From Prasinococcaceae sp. CCMP 1430 (taxonomy: Eukaryota; Prasinodermophyta; Palmophyllophyceae; Prasinococcales; Prasinococcaceae): DNA of 51,701 nucleotides. Under the pieces are notes generated by a model that did no database searches, was not told the origin of the DNA, and saw only the letters and a list, made by a program, of their open reading frames with translations. The DNA is taken from NCBI GenBank assembly GCA_013416795.1, contig RQSC01000002.1, positions 150,542 to 202,242 on the forward strand, written 5' to 3'. Position numbers and translations under genes: made by a program. This document shows positions 32,117-46,721 of this stretch, one piece after another; position 1 is the first letter of the stretch; every line of letters starts with the position of its first letter.

Positions 32117-33652
32117 CTCGCGCCGTTCGGCCGCGGCGCCGGCGCCGGCCCTCGCTCGCCGCCCCGCCCGCGCGCGAGCCCGAGCTGTCTCGTTTTGCGG
32201 CGCGCTTTTTTTTTTTTCTGAGGCGCCGATCGGCGCGCGCGCACGCGCGCCTGCGGCAGGACGGGACCCGCCTTCACGCGGCGAGGGCTCCTGCTGCCAA
32301 CCTCCCGTCCTCGCTCGCCGCCCCGCCCGCGCGCCCGCGCGCCGGCGCCCGCGGCGCGAGCAAGGACGGAGGGAAAGAGCCTCGCGACGGGGTGGGGGTG
32401 GGGGGGGAGCACCGCGCGTGAGCGGGCCGCTCTGGCAAGGGCGGGGGGGGGGGGTCCCGACACCCCACTACCTCGCCACTCCGCAGCTCCCGTGAGTGAG
32501 TGCGCTCGCGCTCGCGCGTGGAACCCTTACTACGTAACCACCTCCCCGGCGCCACGCGCGCGTTACCGGATCCGTCGCGTGCTCGCGCGCGCGCGCGCGC
32601 GGGTTGAGGCGCGCCCGCGGGGGAACCGCTGCGACGCGGGGCGGGCGCGCCCGCGGCCCACACGCGGCAAGGTCAAAGTCCATGGGGCGGAGGTACGGGT
32701 ACATCATACATATGTAGGGTTTGCATACATCGCAAATGCAATGTCGGGTTTGGTGTCCCGAGGTCGGGAGGGGAGGTCGAGGGCGCGCACTCATCAGTCG
32801 GCGCCGGCGCGCCGTTCCCCGGCTGCGTGCCCCCGCTGCGTGCGCGGATCGCAGCGCAGACCGACCGACCGACCGACCGAGGGCGGCCGTGTGTGCACAT
32901 CGCGCGAGCGACGCTGGCGAGTGGCGAGTGGCGTGAGGCGAGAATCTTCTTGGTGGGTGGGCGTGGGGGCACCATCAGTCAGGGTGAGTCGGTTCGGGGC
33001 TCGGCCAGGGCGGAACCCGGCCGGGCCCCGCCCGGCCAGCGGCCGTTGCCACGTGCGGGGGCCTGGCCGGTTGACGGACGGGTCGGGCTGGCTGGCCGGC
33101 GGGCAGATTTGACGGCGGCCGGATGGCGTGGCCGCTGGCCTCTGCAACGGCCACGGCCGCCGGGATCGGCAGCGGCACGCGTGGAGAGCCTCAAGGGGAG
33201 GCGGAAGAGGGGCGCACCATTCCCCGCGCGCTGCGCGCGTTTTGAATGGAGGAGCGTGCGTGAGCCGCGCGAGCCGCGCCTGTGCTGAGGTAGGCGCCCC
33301 GCGCGCGCGCGCGCGCACGCGCGCGCGTGCGCGCGCGCTCGCGTGCGCGTAGGGCGCCCTCGCCGGCGCGGGCGGCATGGCGGTGGATGCTGAGGCCGGC
33401 AACGGCGGTCTGGAGAGGGCCAATCGTGGCGACGCCGGCGCCAGCGGAAGGTGCGCGGAGCAAGCGCACACGCACTCGCGGCATCGTGCGCGCGCGCGCG
33501 CCACGGCGAGGTTGCGGCCCCGCACGCATGCACCGAGCGGCCCTGCGCGCGCAGGCATAGGTGTGCGCCAGCGGGCACTGACGTCCGCGCTCCCTCGTGC
33601 GCTTGCGCGCAGCGGCGGCAGCCCCAATGCGGCGCTGTCGCGTTCGGACACG
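32117..33652. other. Divergent promoter region upstream of the coiled-coil and SulP genes
   Basis: 1.5 kb. Contents: a T12 run near 32206-32217, G-rich tract 32439-32453, alternating CG tracts at 32584-32600 and 33301-33350, a small AT-rich island with ATACATATG at 32698-32745, and a (CGAC)n stretch at about 32862-32880. The frame before the SulP ATG stays open to ATG 33377 but reads as Arg/His-rich non-family sequence, so I treat it as 5' UTR. Confidence 0.5.
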
Positions 33653-35839
33653 ATGGCCGAGCGCATGCGCTCGCGAGGCGCTTTTCCGATGCCAACGCGC
33701 GACGAGATGCGCAAGCGGGTGCGCAGCCTGCTGCCCGTGCTCGAGTGGGGGAAAGACGTCTCCCGCGAGTCCTTGAAGAACGACGTCATCGCCGGTCTGA
33801 CCGTCGGCTGCATGCTGGTTCCCCAGTCAATGGCCTACGCGCTCCTCGCCGGGATGCCCATGATCTACGGCCTCTACAGCTCGTTTGTGCCGCTCGTCGT
33901 GTATGGATGCTTGAACACCAGCCGCGTGCAGGCCGTTGGCCCCGTGGCTATGGATGCCATGATGACGGCGTCGGTGGCCACCAACATCCTCGGAACCGAG
34001 CGCGCGGCGCAGTGCGATCCGTTGGTTCCCTCGACGTGCGGAGAGTACATCGCGCTGGCGCTGTTGCTCGCATTCTTCACCGGTCTGTTGCAGATGTGCT
34101 TCGGCGTGTTCCACCTGGGCATCATAGTCAACTTCCTGTCGCACAGCGTCATGTCAGGCTTCACCTCTGCTGCCGCGCTCGTCATCGGCCTCTCGCAGTG
34201 CAAGTACCTGCTTGGCGTGGATGTGCCGCGCCAGACGTACGCCTGGCAGACTGTGTACAAGCTCGCGAAGGCCATACCTGACCTTGACCTGAACAACTTG
34301 CCGGTGGCCATCATGTGCTGCGCAATCATCTATGGGCTCAAGTGGTGGAAGAAGACGCGGTACAAGAAGTCAAACCCGAGCAAGGCGCATCAATACTTCA
34401 AAATCGTGTGCGACCTGTCGGCGTTGATTAATACCGTCGTGGCTGCTGTGGTCACGTTCGTGATGTACAAGTCGGGGGTGGAGATTCCCATCGTCGGCGA
34501 TGTACCCTCCGGGTTGCCCGCGCCAGAGTTGCCGGCATTCAATGACTTCACCGACTACGGGCAGGTGATATCGGGCGCGTTGATCATTGGTCTCATCGGC
34601 TTTCTAGAGCTCATTGCTATCGCCCAGACGTACGCCAGCGAGCGCGGCTACGAGGTGGACACGAATCAGGAGTTTCTGGCGCTGGGTGCGGGCAACATGC
34701 TGGGTAGCTTGTTCAGCTCGTTTCCCATTGGAGGGTCGTTCTCGCGCACGGCCGTCAACGGGTCATCAGGCGCGGAGACGCCATTGTCGGGCTTGATCAC
34801 AGCCGCGGTCATCCTCCTCGCCGTGACAGCGCTGTCAAGCACATTCTTCTACATTCCCATGTGCTCGCTGGCGGCCATCGTTGTGGTGGCCGTGAAGGAT
34901 CTCGTGAAGGTGAGCGACTTCAAGGAGGCGTGGCGCGTGTCCAAGGCGGATTTCGCGGTGATGTTGGCGTCTTTCGGCTTCACCTTTGGCCTCGGCGTGT
35001 GGCAGGGCATCGCCGTGGGCGTGATCATTTCGCTGGCAATCACCGTGAAGCATTCGGCGTACCCAAACATCGCGTCGCTCGGGCAGGTGCCCGGTACACT
35101 CGTGTTTCGCGACATGCGCCAGCGCAAGGGCAAGTCGCGCCTCCTGACCTTCGATGGCGTGGTGCTGCTGCGCGTTGATTCTGAGCTCTACTTCGCCAAC
35201 TGCGGGTACGTCAAGAACCAAATCATGGAGCGCGTTAAGGAGGAGGATGCGCATGCAGTGATCCTCGACGCCGGCGGTGTCAACACCATCGACCTCAGCG
35301 GGCTCCACATGCTCAGGGGCCTCGTCGAGGATCTCGAGCACAAGGGCGTGACGTTGCTGCTCGCGCATCTTAAGGAGCCCGTGCGCTTCAGCATGAAGAA
35401 GGCGGGCTTCTTTGAGCCGCTCTCCGACGGCGGGGTCATATCCAAGAGCCACTGCTTCTCGCACGTGAGCGACGCGGTCACCCAGGTGATGGGTGCCAAG
35501 GACATGAACCTGCGCCACGCGCCCTCGCACAGAGAGCTCATGGCAATGTGGGAGGACAAGGAGCGCACTGACAACCTCGCCTCAAGCGCCGACGAGCTGG
35601 AGAGCGTCGCCGAGCAGACGAGTGCGCTCAACGCCGAGCAAAGGGCGCTCACAAAGAAGAAGCTCGACGTCAGCAGCGAGATGTCCGCAGAGCAGAAGGC
35701 GTACATCGAGCGGGAGCTCCAGCGCGGCTCGCTCAGCCAGAACCAGGGCAACGTCCTCGGCGCCGACAGCGTGGCTGTGTCCATCGACGAGGACAACAAC
35801 AGCAGCGAAAAGGGCAAGGACATCAAGCGGCGAAAGTGA
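33653..35839 (+). CDS. SulP/SLC26 family sulfate transporter with STAS domain
   Basis: Plasma-membrane anion transporter of the SulP family, in green algae mostly proton-coupled sulfate uptake. The single-exon 728-residue frame carries the family core: DVIAGLTVGCMLVPQSMAYA and LLAGMPMIYGLYSSFVPLVV near residue 60; QAVGPVAMDAMM; GFTSAAALVIGLSQCKYLLG; GFLELIAIAQTYASERGYEV; NQEFLALGAGNMLGSLFSSF; and PIGGSFSRTAVN. About 12 hydrophobic segments follow. The cytosolic STAS domain spans residues about 490-615 (VVLLRVDSELYFANCGYVKN, VILDAGGVNTIDLSGLHML). The tail is charged and ends SSEKGKDIKRRK. ATG 33653 (A at -3, G at +4) is preferred; an in-frame ATG at 33377 would add a low-quality extension. A SAC1-like transporter lies 7 kb downstream. 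Confidence 0.93.
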   Translation: MAERMRSRGAFPMPTRDEMRKRVRSLLPVLEWGKDVSRESLKNDVIAGLTVGCMLVPQSMAYALLAGMPMIYGLYSSFVPLVVYGCLNTSRVQAVGPVAMDAMMTASVATNILGTERAAQCDPLVPSTCGEYIALALLLAFFTGLLQMCFGVFHLGIIVNFLSHSVMSGFTSAAALVIGLSQCKYLLGVDVPRQTYAWQTVYKLAKAIPDLDLNNLPVAIMCCAIIYGLKWWKKTRYKKSNPSKAHQYFKIVCDLSALINTVVAAVVTFVMYKSGVEIPIVGDVPSGLPAPELPAFNDFTDYGQVISGALIIGLIGFLELIAIAQTYASERGYEVDTNQEFLALGAGNMLGSLFSSFPIGGSFSRTAVNGSSGAETPLSGLITAAVILLAVTALSSTFFYIPMCSLAAIVVVAVKDLVKVSDFKEAWRVSKADFAVMLASFGFTFGLGVWQGIAVGVIISLAITVKHSAYPNIASLGQVPGTLVFRDMRQRKGKSRLLTFDGVVLLRVDSELYFANCGYVKNQIMERVKEEDAHAVILDAGGVNTIDLSGLHMLRGLVEDLEHKGVTLLLAHLKEPVRFSMKKAGFFEPLSDGGVISKSHCFSHVSDAVTQVMGAKDMNLRHAPSHRELMAMWEDKERTDNLASSADELESVAEQTSALNAEQRALTKKKLDVSSEMSAEQKAYIERELQRGSLSQNQGNVLGADSVAVSIDEDNNSSEKGKDIKRRK

Positions 35840-36049: not shown

Positions 36050-36090
<41 letters not shown>
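36050..36090 (+). repeat. 41-base poly(T) tract
   Basis: An uninterrupted run of 41 T, 41 bases before the start of the p25-alpha-like gene and 210 bases after the SulP stop. It is striking in such a GC-rich context. It could be a retroposition tail scar (poly(A) on the other strand), a promoter element or a slippage-prone microsatellite. Confidence 0.9.
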
Positions 36091-36131: not shown

Positions 36132-39100
36132 ATGGCCGCTAGGCCGGCAACGGGAGGCGCGCCGGCGGGCGCACCCACGCACGACGGCACCTTCAGCAGC
36201 GAGATGGCGGAGCACCTGCCGCACGGGACCGCACTGGTGTCGCCTATGGCGGCCGCCGCTGCAGCAGGCCCCCTCGCTGCCGCTTTTCAGCGCTACGCGC
36301 GCCCCGACGGCACCGTCTCGAGAGCAGAGCTGCTCTTCGCGCTCACGGATCTCGACGCGGGCAGCCATCTTGGCGGTGCGGCGCGATCGGCTCGCGCCTT
36401 CGACGCCGCCCTATCGGGCGTCGCGCCGGCTGGGGTCGCGGATGCCGTTGACCGCAGGTACACTTTCGAGGAGTTTTGCTCGATGTATGCGAGCGTCCAG
36501 TACAAGGCGATTGCTGGCGCGAGCTCGCCGCGCACAGATGCTACCACGACGCAGATGCGCGCGCTCCAGCGTAAGGTGCGCGACGTCTTCCGCGCCGTTG
36601 CCATCGCAGCGGATGATGCCGCCGAGGCGATCACGCCAATGAGTGCCCTTCGGCTACCCTTCGAGGCGTTCGAGCGTCTGTGTGTCTCCAGCAGCCTCGT
36701 CGATCGCAGGCTCTCAGAGACGGGCCTCGCGGTGCTCTTCGCGTCGGCGAAGAGCGAGCGCGACGAGCTCACCTTCGACCAGTTCTTAGGCGTGCTGTCG
36801 AGGATTGCAGAGATGAAGGGCATGCACCTGGAAGACCTCGCGCACCAGCTGCGATCCGCGGCGCGAGCGACCATCAACACCTACAAGGCCAAGCGTGATA
36901 CCGGGAGAGCCGGCGGCGCCGAGAAACCTTCGACGGGGGCCCAAGCCGTAGCAGCAGCGATGGCGCACGCCGAGCACGGCGCACAGGCTGGAATCGTCGC
37001 CGAGAATGACCGCCTGCATGAGGAGGAGATGCGCAGGCGCCGCGAGGCGCGCTGGGCGGCCCCGGTGTGGAACCAGAGCCCGGCCGCGCTCGGCAGGGGC
37101 GAGAGCAAGGATGTGCCCTCGCACATTGCCAGTGGCGGCAGGCCGTTCACAGCGCCGGCCGGCGGACGCTCGGGGGCGCTCACGCCCGCAGACGTCTTTC
37201 GCGCGCTGGATGCGAAGGACACAGGCTTGCTCACGCGGGACGAGGCGGTCATGTTGCTCGCACAAATTCGAGTCTTCGACAATGCAGCATGCCAGGTTGC
37301 GGCTGACTCGGCCGCGCATGAACTCGCGAGGTCGCTGAGCGTGCGAGCTGGCCCCGGTACGCGTTGCGTCGGGTTCGACCAGATTTCTCAGCTGATCAAG
37401 GCCACCAGGCGCAAGTTGGCCCGCGAGAGCAAGGGTGCGCCCTCACCGCCAAAGCCGATGCAAGTGCCCGAGACAGTGCCGGAGGGCCTCCATGCTGCCT
37501 TCGTCAGCTTCGCGGTCAAGGCCAAGGCAGCCCAGGTCGTTGCGGCTGCCAATAGTGGTGTGCGCACGCCCGAGAGCAAGAGGTCTGCACGTTCTGCCCC
37601 CCCGCGCATTACGATTGCGCAATTCCTGGACTGTTGCGCGTCCGCGCGGCTCGGGCTCGAGCCAGCCAGTGGTCGCGCAGACCCGCGCATCGTTGCGTTT
37701 GCGCGGTGTGCGGCGCCAGGCCGACGCACCCTTGATTTCCCCGCTTTCTGCGAGGCGAGTGCGCTGGTTGCGACTGAGGGTGGGAACGTTGCCGGCGGAT
37801 TCGAGGAGGTGGCTGTGCGGATCATAGCGGCGAGCAAAGGCGTCGAGGCGGACATCGCCGCGTCTCCGGTGAAGGCAGCCGCTGCGAGCGGCACTGGCGG
37901 CGCAGCCGTCACCATCTCGCTGATCTTCGAGCGCTTTGCGCGCGACGGCCTGCTCAGCACAGCCGATGTGCCCTTTGCAATCGGCGATCTCGGACTCCTC
38001 GCCAACACGGAGAGCTCTGCGATTGGTGCATTCCTCTGCAGGGAAGTTTCGAAGCGCGCTGGAGCGAGCGCGCATGCCGCGTTGTCGCTGGACGACTTTG
38101 CAGCCCTGGTGGGCTCCGTGACGTCTGCGAGGGCATTGCCTCAATTCAGGCAGCCTGGGAGCGGTGCGGGCGATGCGGGCGCCCCGATGGTCCCACCGAG
38201 CACCTACAAGGGCCACGGACGCCTGAAGGCGGTATTTGACACCGCGGCGGCGGCGCAAGTCGCTTCGACGCCCGGCCTTGGGAGCCCTCTGTCGCCTGCC
38301 GACAAGGCGCGCGCGCTCTCCTTGGCGCAGTTCGTTCGCCTCTGCACAGACGCCGGCCTCTGTGGCGGCGAGGGCAAGACCTGCAGCCTCCCGACCTACG
38401 ATGGGCTCACGATTATCCACGCGCGCAGCCGCAAGGCCGCGCTTGAGACTAGCAGGGCGGAGGCGATGCCGTCCACCGATGGGCCTCTGTCGCCACGAAC
38501 GCCACGCCAGCGCGGGGCGACACGCCGCCTCGGGTGGGCTGGATTCCTTGTTGCGCTATCGGATATCGCTCAAGCGCGGGATGTTGCAATGCTTCGCGTG
38601 GTTGATGCGGTGCTCAATCTTGCGCCTGCCACGCCCTCGCCGGTGCCTTCGAGCGCCCGAGCTAAGGCCAAGGCGAGCCCAAAGGGTACTCCCGCTGAGG
38701 CCCGCCTCGCGGCTCAGCGCAAATCTCCGTTTGCTACAAAGCCATCCAAACTCAGGCAGCCATCGCCTGGTGTCAAGTCACCCGAAAGCAGGACGCTCTC
38801 AGAGAGCAAAGCCGCGCGCGGGGCGGAGCAGCCGCAGCGGGCGAAACAGCAGAAGCAGCGGGCTGAGAAGGAGCGCGAGGCCGAGCATGACTTGGCCGAG
38901 CAAGCGCGCAGTGCGCTCGAAAATGCAGTAGAGAAGGCATTCGCGAAGCGAGCAGGCGCCTCGCCCGTCCTTGGCGCTGACGACATTGGACTCGTCCTGG
39001 TCGAGGCGGGCGCCCTCAGCCGTCAGGTTGGCCTGGGTTGTGCCGGCGAGGTTGCCAGCGTGCTCGCGCAGAGCAATGCGGCGATGGAACCGGTCGATGT

Positions 39101-40241
39101 TGCGACGGCAAAATCGCAGGCCCTCGCTGTGGCGGAGCTCGAGAGCGCGCGCGGGCAGGAGGCGGCTGCGATGGCCCCCACTCCCGAGTTGCGAGCATCC
39201 GACGCCGTGCGCAGGGCCTTTGACGCGACCGGTAGTGGCGAGCCATGCGTCGTGACTCCCGGGGGCTTCGCGCTCGTGTGCGAAGCGTGTGGCTGGGTGG
39301 AGGCGGGCACACCGGGTGCGGGGGCGGCGGCGATCGCGATGGCGGCGGCGGCAGAGCCTGGCGCTGACGGTGGCGATTTGGAGGCATTCGCCACGGCGCT
39401 GGCTGCCATCGGCCCTGCGGTCGGGTTTGCTACACCGGATGCTGTGCTGGGTGCCATTGAGGTACACTTCGCCGATTCCGACGAGCAGGCGGCGCCACTG
39501 GAGGCATCGGCCCCTGACGCTGCCGATGCGGTGCACGCATCCCCTCAAGTATCGCTCGAGGTGGACGACCTCGCTGTTGCCAACGCCTTCGCCGAGCACG
39601 GCACTGTGGGTGGCGCTGCGGGCGTCACCGCACGCGGGCTCTATCTTACGCTGGGCGACGCAGGCGTATTCGATGGCATCGATGCATCATTCGCCGGTGG
39701 CTTCTTGTATGAGGTCATTACGAGCAACCCACCAGGACCGACAGGCATCCACCTCGACAACGCGCTCGTTCTCGCAATGGAGCTGCGACAGGCTGCCCAG
39801 GACGCTGGGGCGGGCGCGCCCCTGCCCCCCGAGATGCCTGCCAAGCTGCCCTTCGAGCGTATTCTGCGCAACACATTCATGCATTCGGTCAGCGCGCAGA
39901 CTGGGGCGGTTAAGGATGCCATGACCAGCGGCACGATGATGCGACTTCTGAAGGGTTCGGGTCTGCTTGAAGATGGGAAGCCCTCCATGCGCGGCCTCGA
40001 CGTCATCTATTGCGTCGCGAGGAGGTCCGACGGTGCAAATCTCGGGTACGGTCGCTTCAGGCTCGTGCTCGCCCACGTCGCGCAGATCAAGGAGATGGAG
40101 TTCGGTGACGTGGTCAAACGCGTCGCAGAGCGCTACGAGGCCTCGGTCGGTGGGCCGCTCGTGGCACAAGAGCAGGCTCGGCCGCTCGCCCTGCCGCCCG
40201 ACAGCGGGTCGAAGGGGGGGTGTCGGTGCGCGATCATGTAG
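36132..40241 (+). CDS. Large tandem p25-alpha (TPPP)-like protein with C-terminal CAAX prenylation motif
   Basis: An intronless frame of 1369 residues. TPPP/p25-alpha proteins bind tubulin and are common in flagellates. The clearest domain is residues about 142-230: VRDVFRAVA..., RLPFEAFERLCVSSSLVDRR, then ELTFDQFLGVLSRIAEMKG. Similar units with an F-x-x-(L/F)-C...AG...F-x-x-hL-x-x-hA pattern recur at about 452-553, 697-818, 1026-1097 and 1243-1325 (RILRNTFMHS, MRLLKGSGLLEDG, YGRFRLVLAHVAQIKEMEFG). Shorter related units of 70-80 residues lie between them. A basic Lys/Arg/Glu linker sits at about 845-935. The protein ends CRCAIM: CAIM is a classical CaaX farnesylation signal, with a nearby Cys that could be palmitoylated, so membrane anchoring is predicted. 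Whether it acts on axonemal or cortical microtubules is inference. The first ATG after the poly(T) tract was taken as start. Confidence 0.7.
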   Translation: MAARPATGGAPAGAPTHDGTFSSEMAEHLPHGTALVSPMAAAAAAGPLAAAFQRYARPDGTVSRAELLFALTDLDAGSHLGGAARSARAFDAALSGVAPAGVADAVDRRYTFEEFCSMYASVQYKAIAGASSPRTDATTTQMRALQRKVRDVFRAVAIAADDAAEAITPMSALRLPFEAFERLCVSSSLVDRRLSETGLAVLFASAKSERDELTFDQFLGVLSRIAEMKGMHLEDLAHQLRSAARATINTYKAKRDTGRAGGAEKPSTGAQAVAAAMAHAEHGAQAGIVAENDRLHEEEMRRRREARWAAPVWNQSPAALGRGESKDVPSHIASGGRPFTAPAGGRSGALTPADVFRALDAKDTGLLTRDEAVMLLAQIRVFDNAACQVAADSAAHELARSLSVRAGPGTRCVGFDQISQLIKATRRKLARESKGAPSPPKPMQVPETVPEGLHAAFVSFAVKAKAAQVVAAANSGVRTPESKRSARSAPPRITIAQFLDCCASARLGLEPASGRADPRIVAFARCAAPGRRTLDFPAFCEASALVATEGGNVAGGFEEVAVRIIAASKGVEADIAASPVKAAAASGTGGAAVTISLIFERFARDGLLSTADVPFAIGDLGLLANTESSAIGAFLCREVSKRAGASAHAALSLDDFAALVGSVTSARALPQFRQPGSGAGDAGAPMVPPSTYKGHGRLKAVFDTAAAAQVASTPGLGSPLSPADKARALSLAQFVRLCTDAGLCGGEGKTCSLPTYDGLTIIHARSRKAALETSRAEAMPSTDGPLSPRTPRQRGATRRLGWAGFLVALSDIAQARDVAMLRVVDAVLNLAPATPSPVPSSARAKAKASPKGTPAEARLAAQRKSPFATKPSKLRQPSPGVKSPESRTLSESKAARGAEQPQRAKQQKQRAEKEREAEHDLAEQARSALENAVEKAFAKRAGASPVLGADDIGLVLVEAGALSRQVGLGCAGEVASVLAQSNAAMEPVDVATAKSQALAVAELESARGQEAAAMAPTPELRASDAVRRAFDATGSGEPCVVTPGGFALVCEACGWVEAGTPGAGAAAIAMAAAAEPGADGGDLEAFATALAAIGPAVGFATPDAVLGAIEVHFADSDEQAAPLEASAPDAADAVHASPQVSLEVDDLAVANAFAEHGTVGGAAGVTARGLYLTLGDAGVFDGIDASFAGGFLYEVITSNPPGPTGIHLDNALVLAMELRQAAQDAGAGAPLPPEMPAKLPFERILRNTFMHSVSAQTGAVKDAMTSGTMMRLLKGSGLLEDGKPSMRGLDVIYCVARRSDGANLGYGRFRLVLAHVAQIKEMEFGDVVKRVAERYEASVGGPLVAQEQARPLALPPDSGSKGGCRCAIM

Positions 40242-42595: not shown

Positions 42596-45500
42596 TCAGT
42601 CCGAGGATGCCCCCGCGTGCTGCCCCCTGCCGCCGAAGAGCTGGAAGCGGCGCCTTCCGCCGCTGCTCGCCCTGTTGCCGCTCGAGGATGCGCTGTCAAC
42701 AGCGTCGCCGCGCTGCCCCTCCTCAGAGAGCGCGCCGCTGGTAGGGCCCGTCGATTCGACCAAGCCGTGCCTGGCCCTCCTGTTTTCTCCGGAGCAGCAC
42801 AAGCCGCAGGTGAGCCAACGAGGCAGCGCGAGGCACGGTGCTCGCGCGCCCGGCGCATCGCCACCACGCGAGTAGGTGCAGCATCGACCGCAGCGCTTGG
42901 CAACGGAAGCCCCAAAGACGATGGCCAGCACAAAGCCGCCGCTGACGGCCCAGACGATAAAGACGGACGGCGTGCCCAGCACGATGACAACGATGCTCAC
43001 CACCAGCTGCCACAGCTGCATTGGCCCACCAAAGCGGATGAAGTCCCAAAATCTATAGCCGCCGGCACCGTACACCATGAGGTTGGTCTGATAGCCGAAG
43101 GGGCTCGCGAAGCTTGCAGAGGCGGCAAGCATGACGTTGAAGGACATGTTAAGAACGTCAGTGCCGGCATTGGTGGCGGCGTCTGCCGCGACGGGAAACA
43201 TGAGGGCCGCGGCGGCATTGTTGCCGACGATGTTCGCGAGGACGATAGTGCCCACGTAGATAGCAACAAGCAGGCCTGTTTCTCCCGTGCCAGTGGCATC
43301 CGCGGCATCCACCAGCCATTTCGCGAGGTTGCCAGCGACGCCTGAATTCTCCAAGGCGTTCGACAAGCCGAAGGCCGACGCGATGGTGACGATCACCTGC
43401 CAGTTGACGCTATCGCGCGCCTGCTGCTGGGTGAGGCATCCCGTGATGATCATAAAGCCAGCTGCGAGAAGTGCGGACGTGAAGAGCGGCAGCACGTTGG
43501 CCACGGCCAGCGCGATCATGGTGATAGCCGCCGCACTCGCGACGTACAGCAGGTGGAAGCGCGGCGGCATCGAGTTGCGGATCTCAGACACGAGCGCGAA
43601 GGCCGGGTCTTTGCCGTGCGAGCGCATGAAACTCGGCCCCGTGTCCAGCAGCAGCACGTCGCCCGGCCGAAAGCGAATGGCGCCGATCTGCTCGTGCACT
43701 CGCTCGCCTGCGCGATGCACGGCAATGATGACAGCGTCGTAGCGCGTGCGGAAGCGCGCGTCCTTGGCGGTGTGCCCCACCAGCTCACTGTGCTGTGCCA
43801 GCACTGCCTGCACCAGCCGGCGCTCGGCCTTGGCCATTTTGAGCTTCGAGGTCTGGTCGTCCTCCAAGGGTACCAGCCCGGGCACACGCCTTAGGGCCGC
43901 CACACTCGCTAACTCGCCCGAGAACCACAGAATGTCGCCCACGCGCAGCTTGTCGTCGCGATCCGCCACCACGATGGACGGTTCCGAGGTTGTTGGCGCG
44001 ACGCCGCCTTCATCCACCAGAGGGACACTCACGGACGGCGATGGGGGCGGCGCCTCCACATCCACACCGTGACCGTTCGTCGCGGCATCGGCGGGAGGAG
44101 GATCGCCGCCTGTCGTCTCAGTACCATTCACGCCGCCGTCATTTGCCTCGCCCTCAGCCTCGGCCTCGGCCTCTGGATGACGCTCGATGGAGGCGAGGAA
44201 CAGGCCGGGCAGGCCACGCAGTCCAGCCTCCTGCACAGTCTTGCCGACGATGGGCGAGCCGCGCGCCACGCGCATCGCAATCATGAACTCGATTTCGGAG
44301 CTGCGCGAGCCCTGCACGATCTCGAGGTCGCGGTGGCACTCTCGCAGACTGGCCGGCTCATCCACGTTTGCTGCCAATGTAGCGGTGGAGGGCGCCGAGC
44401 CATCACCGCTGGCGGCGTCCTGGGAGCCTTGCGCCGCCTGCGTCGCAGCGGCCGAGTCATCCGTTTGTGAATCAGCGGGGGCATCGATGGTCACCGACGA
44501 GAGTTCAACCCCAGACGCGCCCCCATTTTGCGCCTGCCGAGTTCCGTCCACGGCGTCGCTGCTAGTGCTCGCGTCGCTTGTCACAGCAGGTGCAGCAGGA
44601 GTCACAAAACTGCTCGCGATGCGGCTGAACGCCCAGCGCGACGGCAAAGCCACCGACGAGGCTGCATCGCTGGCGGCGGCATCGTCTTCGGGCACATTGC
44701 CGGCGATGAGCTCCAGGAGCGCAGAGTTCGCTGACACTTGCATGATGATGATGTCACCCCGTTCGAGCTCCGTCTGCCCAATTTGGCCGTGCAGCTGCTC
44801 TCCTCGGCGCGCAATGGCGATGATCGCGGCGCCGTAGCGCCTTCGGAAGCCAACCTCTCGAGGCGTGCGCCCAATCAGGTGCGAATCAGGGCGCACGGCC
44901 GCCCGCGCCATGCGCAATCCCGGCGGGGGAAGGCTCGGATGGGGAGCAACGGCTGGCGTGCCCGCGTATTCCCCGCCTGCTGCGATCGGCGCTGTGAGCG
45001 CTCGCTCCTCCTCTTCCTCAGAGAGCACGCTGTAGCCATCGGGGGCACGCGTGAAGCTCATCCCTCCCTCGCTGCGGGCGTAGCGACCTGACGGCAGCGC
45101 GAAGGACGCCTGCCTCGCACCGAACAGGCGTTCCTCGAGCGCCCGCTCTTGCGTGTCGGAGCCCTCCAAACCAACCACTCCGATGTCGGACGACGCGCGG
45201 AGCGCAGTAAGATCGGTGGGCCCCTGCGCGTCTCTGAGGAGAGGCTGCCCCGGGCGTAGCTGGATGCGGTCGAACAAGTTTTTCTTGATGCGCAGCTCCT
45301 GCGGTAGCTCATTTGGTAGATGCTCGGGCAGTTTTGGCAGGTGCAGATCCAGGTCGTTCGCTGCGCCTCGAATGAAGCCGCTCCGGCCGCCGAAGCGCAT
45401 CGCGCTCGCCGTCGCGGCACCGCTCGTGGAGGCGCCCCCTTCAGCGTCGGCGCCCCCATCAGCGTCGGCGCCCTCGACGGCGGCTGACGGGTCCTCGCTA

Positions 45501-46498
45501 ACATCGTGGTCGTGCTCGTGGTGCAAGGGTTCCAGGCCATACGCAGCGGCCACCTCGCCGAGTTTTTCGGCCATGCCGGTGAAGTGCAGCACGTCGCCCT
45601 CGTTGACCACGAACTCGGGCCCGAGAGCGCGCACCAGCATGTCGCCGCGCCGCGCGGATACCAGGTAGAGGCCCGGCAGTCCACGCAGGCCGCCCTCAGC
45701 CACCGTGCGCCCCACGGCGGGGCTGCTCGGGCGCACGCGTGCGGCGACCACCAGCTCGCCCGTGGCACCTCTCGGCCCAGCCGCCGCTTGAGCTGCTTCG
45801 TCGTGCTTGCGACGCGCGCCGCCGGCCAGCAGCCACGGCGACACCAACAGTATGTACGCGAGCCCCGAGAACATCACGGGCACGCCGAATGGGCTCAGGT
45901 CGAAGATGCCGATCGCGGGTTGGTCGGGAAAGCGCTCCTCGTAGAGTCCGGACACCACCAGGTTGGTCGACGTCCCGATGAGTGTGCACGTGCCGCCCAG
46001 GATGGACGCGAAGCTCAGCGGGATGAAGAGCTGCCCCGGTGCGAGCTTGATGCGCGCTGCCCACTGCTGGACGATGGGGATCAGAATCGCCACGACCGGC
46101 GTGTTGTTGAGAAATGCGGACACCACCGCAACGGGCGCCATCAGCCTGAACTGCGCCGCGGCTGCCGTCTTGGGCGCCCCGAGGATGCGCTGCATGTAGT
46201 AGTCCAAGCCTCCGGTGTTGTTGATGCCCGCCGCCACCGCGAAGAGCACGCCCACCGTCAGCAGCCCCTGGTTGCTGAAGCCCTCGAGTCCCTCCGCCAC
46301 GGTTATGATCTTTGTCGTGGCAAGTATGAGCGCCAGCGCGCCCAGGAGCGCCATGTCGGGCTTGGCGTAGTCGAAGAGCATCAGCACGAACGCGATGACG
46401 ACGCACACGGTGGTGTACCACGCCTCCCATCCCCACGAGGGGGTGTCATCGCCCGGCGGCGGCGGCGGCGGCGGCACGGCCGCCTCGTTCGACGCCAT
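42596..46498 (-). CDS. SAC1/SLT-like SLC13 (DASS) sodium/sulfate-type transporter with four TrkA-C domains
   Basis: Divalent anion:Na+ symporter family member; the closest known architecture is algal SAC1 and SLT proteins of the sulfur-starvation response. The 1300-residue single exon has N-terminal membrane helices with GLLTVGVLFAVAAGINNTGG, SAFLNNTPVVAILIPIV and LGGTCTLIGTSTNLVV (SNT-type signature). Four RCK_C/TrkA-C units follow between them and the C-terminal half: GELVVAARVRPSSPAVGRTV..., RAAVRPDSHLIGRTPREVGF, MRVARGSPIVGKTVQEAGL and VLAQHSELVGHTAKDARF. Then come C-terminal helices with WQVIVTIASAFGLSNALENS, ANIVGNNAAAALMFPVA and SPFGYQTNLMVYGAG. Long Ser/Ala/Asp linkers separate the TrkA-C units. 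The tail is Cys- and Gly/Ser-rich. ATG 46498 is chosen; ATGs near 46573-46582 are alternatives. Confidence 0.92.
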   Translation of the reverse strand: MASNEAAVPPPPPPPGDDTPSWGWEAWYTTVCVVIAFVLMLFDYAKPDMALLGALALILATTKIITVAEGLEGFSNQGLLTVGVLFAVAAGINNTGGLDYYMQRILGAPKTAAAAQFRLMAPVAVVSAFLNNTPVVAILIPIVQQWAARIKLAPGQLFIPLSFASILGGTCTLIGTSTNLVVSGLYEERFPDQPAIGIFDLSPFGVPVMFSGLAYILLVSPWLLAGGARRKHDEAAQAAAGPRGATGELVVAARVRPSSPAVGRTVAEGGLRGLPGLYLVSARRGDMLVRALGPEFVVNEGDVLHFTGMAEKLGEVAAAYGLEPLHHEHDHDVSEDPSAAVEGADADGGADAEGGASTSGAATASAMRFGGRSGFIRGAANDLDLHLPKLPEHLPNELPQELRIKKNLFDRIQLRPGQPLLRDAQGPTDLTALRASSDIGVVGLEGSDTQERALEERLFGARQASFALPSGRYARSEGGMSFTRAPDGYSVLSEEEEERALTAPIAAGGEYAGTPAVAPHPSLPPPGLRMARAAVRPDSHLIGRTPREVGFRRRYGAAIIAIARRGEQLHGQIGQTELERGDIIIMQVSANSALLELIAGNVPEDDAAASDAASSVALPSRWAFSRIASSFVTPAAPAVTSDASTSSDAVDGTRQAQNGGASGVELSSVTIDAPADSQTDDSAAATQAAQGSQDAASGDGSAPSTATLAANVDEPASLRECHRDLEIVQGSRSSEIEFMIAMRVARGSPIVGKTVQEAGLRGLPGLFLASIERHPEAEAEAEGEANDGGVNGTETTGGDPPPADAATNGHGVDVEAPPPSPSVSVPLVDEGGVAPTTSEPSIVVADRDDKLRVGDILWFSGELASVAALRRVPGLVPLEDDQTSKLKMAKAERRLVQAVLAQHSELVGHTAKDARFRTRYDAVIIAVHRAGERVHEQIGAIRFRPGDVLLLDTGPSFMRSHGKDPAFALVSEIRNSMPPRFHLLYVASAAAITMIALAVANVLPLFTSALLAAGFMIITGCLTQQQARDSVNWQVIVTIASAFGLSNALENSGVAGNLAKWLVDAADATGTGETGLLVAIYVGTIVLANIVGNNAAAALMFPVAADAATNAGTDVLNMSFNVMLAASASFASPFGYQTNLMVYGAGGYRFWDFIRFGGPMQLWQLVVSIVVIVLGTPSVFIVWAVSGGFVLAIVFGASVAKRCGRCCTYSRGGDAPGARAPCLALPRWLTCGLCCSGENRRARHGLVESTGPTSGALSEEGQRGDAVDSASSSGNRASSGGRRRFQLFGGRGQHAGASSD

Positions 46499-46721
46499 CG
46501 CCTCGCCCTTCCCTCCGCCCCGCTTCGCCCCCCGCGGGGCGGCCGCGCCCGCGTCGGTCCGTCCGCGCACCATCATCATCATCCCCCACACACCCACCTC
46601 CCCGTGGGCCCGCCGCGCCGCACGCGCGCACGCTGCTACCACCCACGCGCAGCACTTTTCGGCGCCGTCGTCGCCGCGTCTTTGGGTTACACCCAAACCT
46701 CAACGCAGGTCAATTTCAAGG

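Follow-up and report, generated by a model that had tools for sequence, protein, structure and literature searches.

A five-module EF-hand and p25-alpha protein with a candidate CaaX box in a prasinococcalean alga

The DNA analysed here, hereafter the window, comprises 51,701 nucleotides from Prasinococcaceae sp. CCMP 1430 (assembly GCA_013416795.1, contig RQSC01000002.1, positions 150,542 to 202,242, forward strand) and contains an intronless frame for a protein of 1369 residues built from repeated lobes related to the TPPP/p25-alpha family. As the first-pass annotation, made from the sequence alone, had proposed, the frame is single and uninterrupted, running on the + strand from an ATG at 36132 to a TAG at 40239-40241, and the encoded protein terminates in GGCRCAIM. 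The same annotation had counted at least five p25-alpha-like units, all of which are recovered by leave-one-out profiles, together with several shorter related units. The latter proved to be EF-hand-pair-like lobes, one preceding each p25 lobe, and thus the layout is more regular than had been claimed: the protein consists of five modules, in each of which a p25-alpha (TPPP) lobe comes after an EF-hand-pair-like lobe (Table 1). Such a two-part module is usually found as one or two copies in a protein, and contributes to holding microtubules together. The linkers between the modules are irregular, at 101, 21, 91 and 30 amino acids (aa), and the third of these, which contains 20 K/R, looks disordered, resembles disordered regions of microtubule-associated proteins in composition and may bind microtubules. 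The p25 lobes differ in charge: three of them (2, 3 and 5) are basic, the first has a slight overall acidity and the fourth is strongly acidic. The frame is coding sequence under purifying selection, rather than an open stretch arising by chance in GC-rich DNA, as revealed by a module 3 paralogue at another locus of the genome (G000:C26, hereafter C26; 52% protein identity over 246 residues), against which nonsynonymous divergence (dN) is 0.38-0.44 and synonymous divergence (dS) is 1.1-1.7, and divergence by codon position follows the order 3>1>2.

Table 1. Features of the five-module gene, in window coordinates (pI, isoelectric point; AF2, AlphaFold)
Feature	Positions	Strand	Evidence
Whole coding frame, 1369 aa + stop TAG	36132..40241	+	Open frame; divergence from paralogue
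Module 1 EF-hand-pair-like lobe, aa 46-134, no canonical Ca loop	36267..36533	+	Leave-one-out 17.7 bits, 0/1000 shuffles; no PS00018 match
Module 1 p25-alpha lobe, aa 135-242	36534..36857	+	Pfam p25-alpha 24.9 bits in whole protein; leave-one-out 53.1 bits
Module 2 EF-hand-pair-like lobe, aa 344-437	37161..37442	+	Weak Pfam EF-hand_6; leave-one-out 16.5 bits, 0/1000
Module 2 p25-alpha-like lobe, aa 438-565	37443..37826	+	Leave-one-out 16.6 bits, 0/1000
Module 3 EF-hand-pair-like lobe, aa 587-683	37890..38180	+	Leave-one-out 25.0 bits, 0/1000; 52% identity to C26 paralogue
Module 3 p25-alpha-like lobe with inserted loop, aa 684-828	38181..38615	+	Leave-one-out 7.0 bits, 1/1000; C26 paralogue
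Linker 3-4, aa 829-919, Pro/Ser/Lys-rich, pI 11	38616..38888	+	Composition
Module 4 degenerate EF-hand-pair-like lobe, aa 920-1013	38889..39170	+	Leave-one-out 6.5 bits, 11/1000; model confidence low in places
Module 4 degenerate acidic p25-alpha-like lobe, aa 1014-1109	39171..39458	+	Leave-one-out 8.7 bits, 0/1000; AF2 model matches TPPP3
Module 5 EF-hand-pair-like lobe, aa 1140-1229	39549..39818	+	Leave-one-out 11.3 bits, 0/1000; AF2
Module 5 p25-alpha lobe, aa 1230-1334	39819..40133	+	External profile 23.5 bits, 0/500; AF2 model matches TPPP3
C-terminal CAIM, candidate CaaX box, preceded by CR (GGCRCAIM)	40227..40238	+	Sequence letters

The Pfam p25-alpha model, which has a curated cut-off of 22.6 bits, passes that cut-off once in the whole protein (24.9 bits, aa 179-254, module 1), the match extending just to position 104 of the 153 in the model. 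When the modules were isolated p25-alpha fell below cut-off in module 1, and modules 3 and 5 returned nothing; no lobe reached the cut-off of the Pfam EF-hand models. The Pfam search of the units that the first-pass annotation had advocated therefore bears out its p25-alpha assignment in module 1, but neither in the other modules nor, for EF-hands, in any lobe. A zinc-ribbon match in module 4, which was below cut-off and fell within the p25 lobe, was treated as chance. Leave-one-out profiles recovered five out of five p25 lobes (module 3 at 1/1000 shuffles, the rest at 0) and five out of five EF lobes (module 4 at 11/1000, the rest at 0), with the partner lobe scoring far lower and the order of the two types alternating. 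It should be emphasized that the ten lobes were delimited by eye before testing, yet on the same sequence, which somewhat favours these scores. External profiles, whose content is free of this bias, were built on two further genes of this genome together with, in the case of the p25 lobe, human TPPP/TPPP3. The p25 profile scored module 1 at 41.0 bits, module 5 at 23.5, module 2 at 8.2 and module 3 at 3.5, in each case exceeding all 500 shuffles of that lobe, while the EF profile placed modules 3, 1 and 2 above all 500 shuffles and module 5 at 6/500; module 4 was recovered by neither. Against 177,635 PDB sequences a profile of the protein's own five p25 lobes ranked TPPP first (E 4e-4), whereas a profile that combined C26 with lobes 2-5 and omitted lobe 1 matched designed PPR repeats and no TPPP. 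Because the profile lacking lobe 1 loses TPPP, the sequence tie of the degenerate lobes to this family rests on lobe 1, the external-profile scores (modules 5, 2 and 3) and structure. Searching the PDB sequences with the whole protein gave nothing useful, and a scan of a viral-contig collection returned no relative.

AlphaFold models cover modules 4 and 5 and were generated from single-module alignments, as multi-module alignments misaligned module 4. Both modules are predicted to fold as paired helix-loop-helix lobes, with a mean predicted local distance difference test score (pLDDT) of 79.3 and a predicted template modelling score (pTM) of 0.70 for module 5, and values of 72.3 and 0.53, respectively, for module 4. 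In VIA-align comparisons the highest scores of the module 5 p25 lobe were to 7n6g (C1 central pair; Z 13.8) and TPPP3 (Z 13.0, 2jrf, and 12.2), followed by TTLL11 on the microtubule (10.2), the ciliary-tip central pair (10.0) and generic EF-hands (8.5 or below). The module 4 p25 lobe was closest to TPPP3 (Z 11.1, 1wlm, and 10.4, 2jrf), then to the ciliary tip (8.6), TTLL11 (8.3) and structures at 6.7 or below (generic EF-hands). The structure prediction that the first-pass annotation had called for thus places both lobes nearer to TPPP3 than to generic EF-hands, although the models and the sequence claim are not wholly separate lines of evidence, because the AlphaFold alignments included genuine p25 proteins as rows. 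The reading of the repeated units as p25-alpha is supported by these profiles and models. The 7n6g match is to chain 5Z of the Chlamydomonas C1 central pair, at 2% identity, and a p25-like protein may occupy that site.

Two simpler relatives are encoded in the same genome, an intron-containing EF+p25 gene (G000:C2:619751, hereafter C2) and an intronless EF+p25+p25 gene (G000:C75:1133250, hereafter C75). Similar to each module described here, an EF-hand pair precedes one or two p25-alpha lobes in these proteins; they differ in comprising one module, in retaining canonical calcium loops in the EF lobe and in showing no CaaX box where the end is known. No EF lobe of the five-module protein matches the PS00018-type canonical 12-residue calcium loop, a single near-canonical loop, DAKDTGLLTRDE, being found at aa 360 in the module 2 EF lobe; the canonical calcium ligands appear to have been lost, and an identity as a calcium-binding EF-hand protein was rejected. 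An ancestor resembling these two simpler EF+p25 genes probably gave rise to the five-module gene through internal tandem duplication, and duplication followed by loss of the calcium sites would be the simplest history. The frame of the C26 paralogue (L004:1498-2409; L013) continues via a hydrophobic stretch into long Pro-rich repeats, and Pfam found no domain in its module part or in a scanned 500-residue stretch. A 64-residue copy of aa 1166-1229, 94% identical, is present on a further contig (L005:1501-1692, equivalent to G000:C37:107766-107957), and represents either a recent partial duplication or an assembly artefact; its neighbours are an N in the assembly and, on the opposite strand, a Maf-like coding frame.

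The first-pass annotation had also read CRCAIM as a textbook CaaX signal. The letters are indeed at the C-terminus, where CAIM directly precedes the TAG and conforms to Cys-a-a-X, but the C75 protein, the same-genome relative with a readable end, terminates in TAAEAA and so lacks the box. CAIM matches the preference of farnesyltransferase (FTase); the tail leading up to it is short and flexible, and another Cys is located two residues before it. Furthermore, there is scant space for a further exon, as the stop of a tRNA (uracil-5)-methyltransferase-like gene, convergent with this one, is ~150 bases past the frame. It could be argued, however, that such an end reflects chance and is not prenylated: at this composition the loose CaaX pattern is expected at ~0.26% of protein ends (~0.03% for the strict C-x-[VIL]-[MSQ]), and a genome of thousands of genes will therefore hold some. 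With respect to the modifying enzymes, the genome encodes an alpha subunit of FTase/geranylgeranyltransferase type I (GGTase-I) and contains an ICMT-like match, but the corresponding beta subunit was not found in a six-frame, exon-by-exon search of the assembly, in which spliced exons can be missed. The FTase-beta query, put together from conserved family segments, matched the beta subunit of Rab geranylgeranyltransferase (G000:C17:52488-53414), the sole protein prenyltransferase beta found in the assembly, and, weakly, an oxidosqualene-cyclase-like frame. Because the search runs exon by exon the absence of the FTase/GGTase-I beta subunit is not established, and the alpha gene implies a partner. 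We place lipidation of the CAIM end at near even odds; a fortuitous motif is just as probable, and would remove only the last step from the functional model below.

We propose, with a probability of roughly 0.55, that the five modules form an extended flagellar microtubule-associated protein, possibly tethered to a membrane through CAIM. This proposal is favoured because of the dynein set of the genome, the groove binding of Tetrahymena TLP1 and TLP2, and the concatenation displayed by CFAP115. The 12 dynein heavy chain matches indicate that the organism carries flagellar genes, and the presence of p25-alpha correlates with flagella (PMC12731214). The TPPP-like domains of TLP1 and TLP2 bind between protofilaments, and the two in TLP2, joined by a helix, span eight protofilaments, wrapping and bridging the central-pair microtubules (PMC11642885). 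In Tetrahymena CFAP115 four EF-hand-pair domains are present, compared with one in Chlamydomonas FAP115 (PMC10105768). In the proposed flagellar protein several p25 lobes, with 1, 3 and 5 the best candidates, would occupy successive grooves between protofilaments, the basic linker that joins modules 3 and 4 would assist lattice contact and the acidic module 4 would act as a spacer, such that one molecule would staple a broad patch of the lattice (compare TLP2, with its two TPPP-like domains). The EF-hand-pair lobes would be calcium-independent, and CAIM, at the level of the motif, may add a prenyl anchor linking the array to the membrane. In common with the first-pass annotation, we thus infer that the protein may cross-link tubulin and tether it to a membrane. 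A more specific version, in which the prenylated array clamps protofilaments, perhaps at the tip, and inserts its lipid in the flagellar membrane as a one-polypeptide microtubule-membrane tether, is doubtful.

Several observations weigh against a flagellar microtubule clamp. Only module 1 exceeds the curated p25-alpha cut-off and the p25 lobes are mutually 14-26% identical, and thus tubulin contact may have gone in some of them. Foldseek puts the same TPPP3 entries first but with weak E-values (best 0.029), and the structural case therefore rests on rank and Z; to this can be added the FTase beta subunit, which the exon-wise search did not find. Finally, arrays of EF-hand-like units are also known from the interior of microtubules, as in CFAP115, and the protein could be a microtubule inner protein in which the EF-hand-like string lines the lumen along a protofilament, one module per tubulin dimer. 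CFAP115 provides a direct precedent for concatenating EF-hand units along the lattice (PMC10105768), the profile of the five p25 lobes weakly matches Leishmania CFAP115 (E 0.019), and a p25 profile matches RIB57 (E 0.006). In the same PDB profile search, however, TPPP outranks CFAP115, known TPPP-like domains bind the outer surface (PMC11642885), the irregular linkers fit a regular 8-nm track poorly, and a CaaX end makes little sense inside the lumen, making a luminal location unlikely. The CRCAIM end, the encoded FTase/GGTase-I alpha and ICMT match, and the degeneracy of several lobes would also suit a non-flagellar scaffold of the cortex or membrane cytoskeleton, targeted mainly by lipidated CAIM and using its EF and p25 lobes as protein-protein adaptors that do not bind tubulin. 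As p25-alpha proteins correlate with flagella (PMC12731214), the genome has a dynein set and the exon-wise search found only a Rab-type prenyltransferase beta, such a scaffold appears improbable.

Upstream of the five-module gene is a SulP sulfate permease gene. The SulP protein, which has a STAS domain, and a CitMHS/TrkA-C transporter are encoded within ~7 kb of each other (33377-35839; 42596-46696), flanking the five-module and methyltransferase genes, and would form a small sulfate-transport cluster if the CitMHS/TrkA-C protein is a SAC1/SLT-type sulfate transporter. Positions 36050-36090 are a run of 41 T, which ends 41 bases ahead of the start codon at 36132; the remaining homopolymer A/T runs of at least 12 in the window are just 12-13 bases each.

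Recent work has located TPPP-like domains between protofilaments at the ciliary tip, and a natural five-fold array would test whether additional p25 lobes lengthen the arc of microtubule that is wrapped. The CaaX box, if true, would make the protein a concrete candidate for a flagellar microtubule-membrane tether. As the curated p25-alpha model misses most of the units here, multi-p25 proteins may be under-counted in algae.

With respect to characterized members of the family, the GxGxGxxGR motif found at the C-terminus of human TPPP/TPPP3 is absent from the five-module protein, and the p25-alpha profile reaches only position 104 of 153; assignment to the long-type TPPPs was therefore rejected. 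The human proteins share the p25-lobe fold (against 2jrf, Z is 13.0 for module 5 and 10.4 for module 4), but consist of a single domain and lack an EF lobe. Apicortin was rejected as the DCX domain had no Pfam match at E up to 10. TtCFAP115 likewise concatenates EF-hand-like units relative to a single-unit homologue, but is an EF-hand-pair inner protein, and the profile match here is a weak one to its Leishmania relative. Tetrahymena TLP2 (TTHERM_00370820) is, similarly, a long protein of flagellar context with several TPPP-like domains and long linkers. It differs in that an ARM domain is present at the N-terminus and a long helix connects its two TPPP-like domains, in place of five modules each with an EF lobe; Pfam found no ARM match in the five-module protein, in which just 45 aa precede module 1, and it is no TLP2 orthologue. 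The absence of GxGxGxxGR and the EF-hand-pair-like lobes, seen by leave-one-out profiles with none at the Pfam EF-hand cut-off, are features of the short, multidomain TPPP-like proteins of chlorophytes. Orosz (2012) described Chlamydomonas XP_001691800, with two p25-alpha domains and EFh, and Micromonas XP_003058058, with three p25-alpha domains, EFh and COG4942 (PMC3498115); double- and triple-type p25 proteins are known elsewhere too. The suggestion in the first-pass annotation that no comparable protein had been described was thus too strong, in view of these chlorophyte proteins (PMC3498115) and TLP2 (PMC11642885). In the literature searched there was no match to five modules with a CAIM end, and no paper joined TPPP, p25alpha and prenylation. 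Compared by published description, the chlorophyte proteins share several short p25-alpha domains and EF-hand regions in one polypeptide, but contain two or three p25-alpha domains, whereas here there are five EF+p25 modules, most below the Pfam cut-off, and a CAIM end. Thus, while the combination of multiple p25 domains with EF-hands was already known, five EF+p25 modules with a CAIM end are new to the literature searched.

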